This document shows positions 40,951 through 44,345 of a DNA stretch of 64,000 nucleotides, in pieces. The stretch's first letter is position 1. Each line of letters starts with the position of its first letter. Under the pieces are notes generated by a model. The model did not search any database. It was given only the letters and a program-made list of their open reading frames with translations, and was not told the DNA's origin. Origin of the DNA: an uncultured Anaerolineae bacterium (lineage in GTDB: Bacteria > Chloroflexota > Anaerolineae > Anaerolineales > Villigracilaceae); NCBI GenBank assembly GCA_903822545.1, contig CAIJPN010000024.1, forward strand, positions 62,001 through 126,000, read 5' to 3'. The translations under genes were made by a program, and so were the position numbers.

Positions 40951-41199
40951 TTACACAGCCAGCGCACTGGTCAGGAAGGTTGTGATCTCCGCCTCGCTGG
41001 GGATGCGCCCGGATGAGACAACCTTCTCATCCACCACCAGCCCCGGCGTGGACATGATTTTATATTTCATAATATCGGGGTATTCGGTTACCTTGATCAC
41101 TTCCGCTTCGATGCCAAGTTTTGCAATTGCCTGGCGTGTAACCGATTCAAGCTTTTTGCAGTTCGCACAGCCGGAGCCGAGCACTTTGATGGTTAACAT
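40951..41199 (-). CDS. Redox-active disulfide (thioredoxin-like) protein
   Basis: 82 residues: MLTIKVLGSGCANCKKLESV then TPGLVVDEKVVSSGRIPS. The CxxC sits in GCANCKKLE, and the cis-proline is in STPGLVV. This is the small glutaredoxin/thioredoxin-like family (TIGR00412) that nearly always sits beside ArsP/UPF0718 permeases. It follows the permease gene by 11 bp with AAAGGAGA before the ATG at 41199. It may deliver or reduce metalloids for the permease. Confidence 0.9.
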   Translation of the reverse strand: MLTIKVLGSGCANCKKLESVTRQAIAKLGIEAEVIKVTEYPDIMKYKIMSTPGLVVDEKVVSSGRIPSEAEITTFLTSALAV

Positions 41200-41210: not shown

Positions 41211-42263
41211 TTACATCACAAAATTGAACAAATATCCAGTCACGATGATGGCGAGCGCCACCACCCCGACAAAAACTGCGATCAGGCGCGGCTTCAAAAC
41301 TCGCCGCAAGATAATCACCTCGGGCAGGCTCAATCCAACCACCGCCATCATGAAAGCCAATACTGTGCCCAGCGATGCGCCTTTTTCCATCAGCGCGCTC
41401 ACAATCGGGATAACCCCGGCGGCGTTCGAGTAGAGTGGCACGCCCATCAGCACCGCCACCGGCACCGACCACCAGGCATTCTTGCCCATGATGCTCACCA
41501 GCGCGTCTTCTGGCATGTAGCCGTGAATGCCCGCGCCAACTGCGATGCCAATCACCACGTACAGCCAGACTTTGCCAACGATTTCTTTGACGGATTCCCA
41601 GGCCCGGGCAAAACGTTGTTCCCAGGTCAGGGATTCAAATATTTCGCTGCCCGAGGACTGGATCTGCCAGACGAAATCTTCCACATCCCGCTCCATTTTC
41701 ATCCGCCCGATGATGATTCCTGCCATGGTGGCAATTACCAGCCCCGAAGCGATGTACAACCCGGCCACCTTCCAGCCAAACAGGCCAAATAACATGACAA
41801 TCGCCACTTCATTGATGGTGGGCGCGGCAATCAGGAAGGAAAATGTCACCCCTAGTGGGATGCCGCTTTCTACGAACCCGATAAAGAGCGGAACGGCGGA
41901 GCAGGAGCAAAACGGCGTGACAATGCCTAGCGCCGCCGCCATGAAGTTGCCCAGCCCCTCGCGTTTGCCGCCCAACAGGGCGCGCGTCCGCTCTGGGCTG
42001 AAGAAGGTGCGGATGACCGAGATAACAAAAATCATGCCTGAGAGCAGCAACAGGATTTTGGGTACATCGTACAGGAAAAAGGCAACGGATGAACCGAGTT
42101 GGGAGGCGGGGTCAAGCCCCAGGGCGGAATAAGCCAGCCAATCGGCCAGGGGTTGGATCAGGTTGTAGAGCAGCAGCCAGGCCACAGCGGCAAGCCCAAT
42201 CCATCCAAATGAGCGCAAAGGATGACCCGTTGTTGGGAAAAGTTTGAGCGATGAGAGTTTCAT
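41211..42263 (-). CDS. arsP: ArsP-like permease (UPF0718)
   Basis: 350 residues with eight to ten membrane segments. The family signature PFCSCSAVPLFIGFVESGIP with its CxC motif is present, as are LIAAPTINEVAIVMLFGLF and the C-terminal GVPLYSNAAGVIPIVSALM. In characterised relatives ArsP exports trivalent organoarsenicals; related permeases have other soft-metal roles. Its partner thioredoxin is 11 bp downstream. Start ATG 42263. The promoter upstream (42326-42354) is covered by two operator-like dyads. Confidence 0.85.
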   Translation of the reverse strand: MKLSSLKLFPTTGHPLRSFGWIGLAAVAWLLLYNLIQPLADWLAYSALGLDPASQLGSSVAFFLYDVPKILLLLSGMIFVISVIRTFFSPERTRALLGGKREGLGNFMAAALGIVTPFCSCSAVPLFIGFVESGIPLGVTFSFLIAAPTINEVAIVMLFGLFGWKVAGLYIASGLVIATMAGIIIGRMKMERDVEDFVWQIQSSGSEIFESLTWEQRFARAWESVKEIVGKVWLYVVIGIAVGAGIHGYMPEDALVSIMGKNAWWSVPVAVLMGVPLYSNAAGVIPIVSALMEKGASLGTVLAFMMAVVGLSLPEVIILRRVLKPRLIAVFVGVVALAIIVTGYLFNFVM

Positions 42264-42307
42264 TTCAGCCTTCTTTCCGACAGGTGTGCAGGTTGGGGTG
42301 TTTCCAT

Positions 42308-42355
42308 ATTCGTAATCATGAATATATTATAAGGAATACATTCGTAAAGTTGAAT
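42308..42355 (-). promoter_or_regulatory. Promoter with two ArsR-like operator dyads ahead of arsP-like gene
   Basis: Two dyads of the form ATTC-N8-GAAT are seen at 42308-42323 (ATTCGTAATCATGAAT) and 42340-42355 (ATTCGTAAAGTTGAAT); their first half ATTCGTAA is identical, and their centres are 32 bp apart (about three helical turns). On the minus strand TTCAAC (42349-42354) and a perfect TATAAT (42326-42331) are 17 bp apart, forming a promoter. One dyad covers the -35, the other lies at the start of the transcript. No ArsR/SmtB gene is in the window. Confidence 0.75.
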
Positions 42356-42434
42356 ATGATAAATGTCATAGGGATGTAACTTTAACGTAGCCCTATCAGT
42401 TTATGAAAATAGAGCAATTCGCCACCCTGGCGTG

Positions 42435-42493
42435 CTAAAAAGGCTTTTAGCTGGCAGGCGTAGCGCGGATTGCTAATCTGCGCTACGCCTGCC
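42435..42493. repeat. REP-like palindrome and small hairpin after pepF
   Basis: GGCAGGCGTAGCGC (42453-42466) pairs exactly with GCGCTACGCCTGCC (42480-42493), extended by a G-T wobble and four further pairs around loop GCT. Immediately before it, CTAAAA (42435-42440) pairs with TTTTAG (42445-42450). GC-rich and without U-run on the minus strand; may terminate pepF or be a REP element. Confidence 0.65.
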
Positions 42494-42533
42494 GGATATT
42501 GATTATCAAAGTGTCAGAATGTTTGTTTTTGGG

Positions 42534-44345
42534 TTAGTCAATCAGCGTTTCCAGCCGATTTACCAGCCCGGCCAGCACACCGAATGCGGATTCGACGGGG
42601 GCTGGGGTGGTCAGGTCGACCCCGGCTTTTTGCAGCGCGGCCAGGGGGTAGCGCGACCCGCCAGAGCTGAGAAAGTCGAGATAACGGGAGACCGCATCTG
42701 GGTCGGAGCCGGATGTAACAGCATGTGAGAGGGCGTGAGCGCCTGAAATCCCTGTTGCGTACTGGTAAACGTAAAAGTTCATGTACATGTGCAGGAATTG
42801 TGCCCAGGTGATGCCGATGCGGTCACGGTCGAATTCAACTTCGTCGCCGTAGCCTTCCTTGAAAAAGTCGGCCAGGATGCCGATCAGGATGTCGGCGCTG
42901 AGCGGTGCGCCTTTTTCGGCGCGGGTGTGCATTTCCAACTCGAAGCGCGCCAGGGTGGGCATGATGAAGAAGTAGCGATGGTAGTTTGACATGGCTTCTT
43001 CGATCAGCGCAATTTGGAAGTCGGGCGCGCTCTGGGTGCGCATCAGGTAATCGCGCACGGTGGCCTGGTTGAAGTTGGAGGCCACTTCGGCGACGAACAG
43101 CCCGTAGCGGCTGTAGAGAAAACGCTGGTTGGCGCGGGAGTAGTAGGAGTGCATCGAGTGGCCGAGTTCGTGGGCCAGGGTGGAAAGGCTGAAAACATCA
43201 TCCGCGTAAGACATCATGATGAAGGGCCGCGTGCCGAACGAGCCGCTGGAGAAGGCGCCTTCGCGCTTGCCGCGATTGCGGGCGCGGTCAACCCAGCGCT
43301 CTTCCAGGCAGCCCCGGCGCAGGATGTTGACGTATTCCTCGCCGAGCGGGGCCATGCCTTCGCAAATCCATTCGACGGCCTGGGCATATGGCACCACCGG
43401 TTTGGATTCGGTCAGCGGGGCTTTGATGTCGTAGACGCCGAATGTCTCCAGCTTGAGCGCCTTCCTGCGCAGCCGCCAGTATTTGTGCCAGGTGGGCAGG
43501 TTTTGCTTGAAAACTTCGATCAGGTTGTGGAAAACTTCCACTGGAACGTTGTTTGGCTCTAGCGAAGCGTGCAGCGAGCTCGCGTAGCCGCGCACACGGG
43601 CGTTGAAGACATCCTGTTTGATGGCAGTGGTCAGGATGGCGGCGGATGTATTTTTGAAGGCCAGGTAGCCATCGGCGTAGTTTTGCCAGGCTGAGCGGCG
43701 CACCTGCCGGTCGGGGTGGGTGACCAGCGCGCCGATGCTGGACTGGCCGATTTCGAGCTGGGAACCATCCGCAGCGGTGGCGGGGGCAAATTTCAGGTCA
43801 CCGTTGTTGAGCATGTTGAAGATGCTGTATGCGCCCGAAAACGGGTCGCCAGCCAGGGCCAGCACCTGTTCCACTTCCCCAGAGCGGACGTGTGGGCTGC
43901 GTTTTTCGAGTTTTTCCACATAAAAGGCGAAAAAGGTCAGTTCGGGAGTGGCCTGGGTCCACGCTTTGAGCTTGTCGAAGCCGATGGACATCAACTCCGG
44001 GTCGAAAAAGGCCAGCGCCGCCCCGGTTTTGGCTCCCACGCTACGGGCCTGACCGGCCCTGGCGGTGGCGGCCTGGTCGAAAGTATCCACCGAACTGGCG
44101 TTGTTGGCGTACGTCATAATTTTGCCCATCAGCGTGCCGACTTCCTCCAGCTTTTGGATGGCTTCGAGCAGCACCTGCGGGCTTTCGCCCAGGCGTCCCT
44201 GGTAGGCAGAGAGCGAGGGCAGCAGCACTTCGAGCGCTTTGCAGGCGGAATCCCAATCGGCGGGGGTTGGGAAGATGGATTCGAGCGCCCAGGTTTCCTC
44301 GAGCGGGATGGCACTGCGGACGGGCAGAGATGTGGTTTCGGTCAT
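42534..44345 (-). CDS. pepF: M3 family oligoendopeptidase F
   Basis: 603 residues, full length. Zinc-binding HELGH in STLAHELGHSMHSYYSRAN with a further Glu (FVAEVASNFNQA) completes the HExxH + E gluzincin site. N-terminal helical region IPLEETWALESIFPTPADW is typical. It cleaves short peptides in the cytoplasm (no signal). Start ATG 44345 behind CAGGAGA. The gene runs towards the ArsP-like promoter, 270 bp downstream. Confidence 0.95.
   Translation of the reverse strand: MTETTSLPVRSAIPLEETWALESIFPTPADWDSACKALEVLLPSLSAYQGRLGESPQVLLEAIQKLEEVGTLMGKIMTYANNASSVDTFDQAATARAGQARSVGAKTGAALAFFDPELMSIGFDKLKAWTQATPELTFFAFYVEKLEKRSPHVRSGEVEQVLALAGDPFSGAYSIFNMLNNGDLKFAPATAADGSQLEIGQSSIGALVTHPDRQVRRSAWQNYADGYLAFKNTSAAILTTAIKQDVFNARVRGYASSLHASLEPNNVPVEVFHNLIEVFKQNLPTWHKYWRLRRKALKLETFGVYDIKAPLTESKPVVPYAQAVEWICEGMAPLGEEYVNILRRGCLEERWVDRARNRGKREGAFSSGSFGTRPFIMMSYADDVFSLSTLAHELGHSMHSYYSRANQRFLYSRYGLFVAEVASNFNQATVRDYLMRTQSAPDFQIALIEEAMSNYHRYFFIMPTLARFELEMHTRAEKGAPLSADILIGILADFFKEGYGDEVEFDRDRIGITWAQFLHMYMNFYVYQYATGISGAHALSHAVTSGSDPDAVSRYLDFLSSGGSRYPLAALQKAGVDLTTPAPVESAFGVLAGLVNRLETLID

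Follow-up and report, generated by a model that had tools for sequence, protein, structure and literature searches.

A predicted ArsR regulon divided between two loci, with tandem operators upstream of arsP, in an uncultured Anaerolineae bacterium

Results

The arsP-arsE locus

The window, by which we mean the whole 64-kb stretch of DNA analyzed, encodes on its minus strand an ArsP permease and, downstream of it, an ArsE-type thioredoxin-like protein (Table 1). The permease carries TPFCSCSAV in a transmembrane segment, in agreement with the C(S/T)C motif defined for ArsP permeases (PMC4435449), and scores below the curated NCBIfam cut-offs of the SaoE and SO_0444 models (126.8 vs 325 and 98.3 vs 300 bits, respectively). 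Its gene is the sole PF03773 gene in the genome. Neither ArsB nor Acr3 was found in the genome (G000), where an Acr3 protein query gave no match, and we therefore consider ArsP its only recognizable arsenic permease. One PF01758 match was considered as a missed Acr3 or ArsB and rejected, as it is an auxin-efflux-type carrier (PF03547).

The 270-bp intergenic region that separates arsP from an oligopeptidase F gene ending at 42534 contains, in minus-strand order, a TGACA-N2-TATCA box, the distal operator, TATAAT and the proximal operator, followed by a leader ORF, arsP and arsE. Both operators are 20-bp palindromes of the form ATATTC-N8-GAATAT; the proximal one lies directly after the -10 box and over the expected +1, and the distal one overlies the -35 position. 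The initial annotation had described the pair as two shorter repeats, ATTCGTAATCATGAAT at 42308-42323 and ATTCGTAAAGTTGAAT at 42340-42355, one across the -35 and the other after the -10, with centers 32 bp apart. The repeats, their placement and their spacing are all present as described, but the unit was drawn too short, the true one being the 20-bp palindrome. A TAnnAT-type hexamer is found directly 5' of the proximal operator in nearly all aligned relatives. The assignment of the -35 is uncertain because a consensus scan gives another pair, TTTACG-16-TATATT. A terminator-type hairpin of 20 pairs (42451-42495) lies in the same intergenic region.

Table 1. Features of the arsP promoter region and the candidate regulator gene
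Feature	Coordinates	Strand	Details
Proximal operator	42306..42325	-	ATATTCATGATTACGAATAT on minus, ATATTCGTAATCATGAATAT on forward; palindrome arms perfect
Distal operator	42338..42357	-	ATATTCAACTTTACGAATGT on minus, ACATTCGTAAAGTTGAATAT on forward; 1 arm mismatch
-10 box	42326..42331	-	TATAAT, from sequence
Presumed -35	42349..42354	-	TTCAAC; 3/6 to consensus (poor); 17-nt spacer; within distal operator
Box resembling TGACA-N2-TGTYA	42357..42368	-	TGACATTTATCA, a copy of the motif; abuts distal operator
Leader ORF	42260..42319	-	19 codons, MITNMETPQPAHLSERRLK; start within proximal operator
arsP	41211..42263	-	permease, 350 aa; PF03773, E 1.3e-76, 258 bits (cut-off 32.3)
arsE	40951..41196	-	MTH895/ArsE-type thioredoxin-like, 81-82 aa; TIGR00412, 102 bits (cut-off 62)
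arsR, CVC-type	G000:C222:6849-7253		other contig of the same genome

Specificity and conservation of the operator pair

When every 20-mer of the window was scored with a matrix built from relatives only, the proximal operator came out best (31.2 bits) and the distal operator second best (25.6 bits), while the next best sequence reached 11.8 bits. A tandem pair did not arise in any of 20,000 Markov simulations with the dinucleotide make-up of the intergenic region, and a scan of 101 genomes with the tandem pattern matched 20 of them, compared with none for a reversed control pattern. Additionally, the sites are conserved at the promoters of orthologous permeases. These observations contradict the reading of the repeats as chance, or as sequence serving another purpose such as promoter AT-richness or the binding of another regulator, and leave that reading with a negligible probability, even though single sites with at most two arm mismatches are frequent (239 in the genome). 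Since those 239 sites are mostly due to chance, a lone weak site is no proof; the attempt to delineate a genome-wide regulon from single sites was dropped, and regulon assessment was restricted to tandem or high-scoring sites.

Orthologues of the permease in relatives share 62-78% identity, arsE adjoins arsP in nearly all of them, and arsR lies within a few kb in 18 of the 19 relatives carrying orthologous arsP. The exception (G066, locus L191 on G066:C146) has arsE-arsP with single operators on a 6.5-kb contig that lacks arsR. The operator is located 5' of arsR in all 29 orthologous Anaerolineae loci. In a named genome set it is found at 48 of 49 arsR loci, 38 of which are tandem, and slightly farther upstream at the 49th; the two sets overlap, with at least six contigs, judged by their lengths, common to both. 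This near-universal occurrence at orthologous arsR loci bears out the proposal that the sites over the arsP promoter are of ArsR type. Across the phylum the tandem pattern matched 13 of 400 genomes; only three matches fell outside the family, and these were rejected as they resemble unrelated repeats.

Relatives yield the consensus AYATTCR-N6-YGAATRT, strong in the outer arms and weak in the center. The half-site ATTCGTAA named in the initial annotation is not supported as the recognition half-site and is incidental: it accounts for five of 94 half-sites in relatives, where conservation resides in the outer ATATTC/GAATAT. Within the 5.53-Mb genome, ATTCGTAA-N4-GAAT occurs without mismatch at the window pair alone. 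The centers of tandem operators in relatives are 30-33 bp apart (30-32 bp in nearly all), and several relatives have a single operator only. A spacing of 30-32 bp fits three helical turns, and the two predicted operators may bind cooperatively; the same spacing follows equally from the placement of the sites on the -35 and +1, and the argument from helical phasing to cooperativity is not supported in the form given in the initial annotation.

A box of the form TGACA-N2-TGTYA is found 41-43 bases 5' of the proximal operator in 20 of the 27 promoters examined, and occupies the same position in the arsR promoters of relatives. Lying near -43, it might provide ArsR with an additional contact or serve an activator.

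The candidate regulator

The window was said to hold no ArsR/SmtB gene, and indeed PF01022 has no match on its contig (C24). Twelve PF01022 matches occur in the genome, and only one of these genes, arsR on contig C222, has ATTC-N8-GAAT at its promoter; a site at the 5' end of this gene is matched by the originally proposed pattern with one mismatch. The C222 promoter repeats the layout of the window, with a TGACA box, a degenerate distal site (two arm mismatches), TACAAT and the proximal site ATATTCATGAATACGAATAT, which is identical to the window proximal site at 19 of 20 bases and contains the arsR start codon. A matrix derived from other genomes placed the C222 proximal site and both window operators in the first three positions among the sites of the genome that were scored. 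The window sites are thus inverted repeats over promoter elements, common to the predicted regulator's own promoter.

The C222 protein scores above the family cut-offs (NF033788, 69 bits with a cut-off of 55; PF01022, 30.3 bits with a cut-off of 22), and its relatives of solved structure, by sequence, are SmtB, CadC and other family members. Its cysteine box, EACVCHLE, agrees with the ELCV(C/G)D box in the DNA-binding region. Five cysteines are invariant among 12 aligned orthologues: two in the DNA-binding region, within C39-V-C41, and three C-terminal ones, within C115-x-C117-P-x-C120. The gene heads an operon of arsR, two SPASM radical-SAM genes, arsD, a methyltransferase gene, arsA and a thioredoxin-like gene, with no permease among them. 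The radical-SAM pair (L081 7257-9813, G000:C222) is also found in arsR operons of several relatives (L121, L122, L124), and the closest model for both proteins is a tungsten-cofactor oxidoreductase maturase, with scores under its cut-off.

We consider it very probable that the window sites are operators of this CVC-type ArsR, encoded in trans and controlling arsP-arsE and the arsR operon together. The initial proposal that the regulator lies elsewhere in the genome is supported: the arsR gene on C222 has the same operator at its own promoter, and its orthologues usually adjoin arsP. Judged from gene order, the linked cluster arsR-arsP-arsE(-arsD-arsA) usual in relatives is here split over two places; the single run arsR-arsP-arsE-arsD-arsA of one relative (L135) is the unsplit counterpart of the genes on the two contigs. 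C222 and C24 are not joined in the draft assembly, whose estimated contamination is 3.15%, and their co-residence rests on binning.

Another ArsR/SmtB protein of the same genome, or cross-talk among several, might occupy the operators instead. One example is on C166, where a similar palindrome, ATATTCACAAATGTAAATAT (C166:14264), lies by an ArsR gene and has a matrix score of 18.4, close to the lowest scores of true operators. However, that site has no tandem partner, the protein lacks the CVC motif and its gene adjoins multihaem-cytochrome-like genes, and the regulator that accompanies arsP in relatives is the CVC-type ArsR rather than the C166 type, all of which makes binding by such a protein improbable.

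Alternatively, the sites could be relics left by the loss of arsR from an arsR-arsP-arsE operon, with arsP now constitutive. Other genomes do retain arsR next to arsP, and the leader ORF begins at the position of the arsR start in relatives; its stop codon and the arsP start codon overlap in the sequence ATGA. The similarity of the leader peptide to ArsR N-termini is not significant, however, as 319 of 2000 shuffles fit as well (about p=0.05 for the DNA). For this reason the leader ORF was set aside as an arsR remnant except as a possibility, and it is possibly either such a remnant or a chance ORF. Moreover, relics would be expected to decay, yet neither palindrome has lost its integrity, and the genome has an ArsR with a matching operator; a relic origin is therefore also a poor candidate, and control by the C222 ArsR is preferred.

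Other sites were observed in the genome. A possible third regulon site (L195 1205-1224; G000:C144:37704-37723) scores 19.6 bits, at the low end of true operators, and lies about 170 bp 5' of a TtrA/ArrB-like operon encoding an FeS protein, NrfD and a 1113-aa molybdopterin oxidoreductase. At L174 tandem operators separate the same FeS-NrfD genes from a divergently oriented arsR. A further ArsR-family gene (L083 near 4440; G000:C146:54473) has a perfect promoter palindrome, ATATCGTAAAATTACGATAT, of a different operator type.

Discussion

Proposed regulation

We infer binding, repression, arsenic induction and co-regulation of both loci. Without inducer, one ArsR dimer would occupy each palindrome, over the -35 and over the +1, and block RNA polymerase at the arsP-arsE promoter, and the same protein would shut the promoter driving its own operon on C222, from arsR to the thioredoxin-like gene. 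Trivalent arsenic, antimony or a trivalent organoarsenical would then bind the ArsR cysteines and release both promoters, so that the permease and ArsD/ArsA would be made together. Both the block by dimers and the release by arsenic are predicted by analogy with other members of the family. The CVC and C-terminal cysteines, together with the neighboring ArsD, ArsA and ArsP, suggest a trivalent arsenical as the inducer.

A more speculative proposal is that ArsP serves as the membrane partner of an ArsD/ArsA pump, with ArsA-driven export of trivalent arsenic, possibly as an organoarsenical produced by the radical-SAM and methyltransferase enzymes of the same regulon. Given that ArsB and Acr3 are both missing, the shared tandem operators would then couple arsD-arsA on one contig to arsP-arsE on the other. 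We regard this as rather unlikely on present evidence.

Taken together, we interpret the system as an ArsR regulon of the ordinary kind, newly delineated and dispersed. For Anaerolineae (Chloroflexota), a little-studied group, it provides a concrete operator motif for arsenic control, a predicted regulator and a list of its targets, and also an example of a metalloregulon split between two loci with its operator grammar kept. We found no description of such a regulon in Chloroflexota among open-licence papers.

Comparison with known systems

The ArsR proteins of R773 and E. coli resemble the C222 ArsR in being winged-helix ArsR/SmtB proteins with CVC in the DNA-binding region, a promoter palindrome and ars targets; in both, the box that binds arsenite includes CVC (PMC6555750). 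The R773 box is CVCDLC, whereas the C222 protein has E in place of the third cysteine and, compared with R773, three extra invariant C-terminal cysteines (C115xC117PxC120), which may replace the missing one. The operator ATATTC-N8-GAATAT, whose 8-bp center is weak, departs from the published ArsR/SmtB 12-2-12 core, TAxAxTCAAATA-xx-TATTTGAxTxTA (PMC6555750). Since operators vary within the ArsR/SmtB family, this mismatch marks a variant. Paired inverted repeats at one promoter are known from smt, where each is thought to take one dimer (PMC6555750), but the arms differ from those of the window pair, whose palindromes are placed on the -35 and +1 at 30-32 bp.

Control of scattered genes by one protein has a precedent in TtSmtB of Thermus thermophilus HB27, a single ArsR/SmtB protein for arsenic genes dispersed over the chromosome (PMC5658604). 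TtSmtB targets a metal ATPase and arsC, whereas the targets predicted here are arsP-arsE and arsD-arsA, and the binding site and cysteine layout differ as well.

The window ArsP is similar to the cluster 2 ArsP permeases (PMC4435449), sharing PF03773 and a C(S/T)C motif that follows tPF. Operons of arsA and arsP have been described, and a link between ArsA and ArsP was tentatively proposed in 2010 from gene neighborhoods (PMC2963123). In contrast to those operons, the predicted permease of the window is paired with the ArsE thioredoxin, and its gene stands apart from arsD-arsA; the genome lacks both ArsB and Acr3. As this genome seemingly has no other arsenic permease for ArsA, the ArsA-ArsP proposal is directly testable here.
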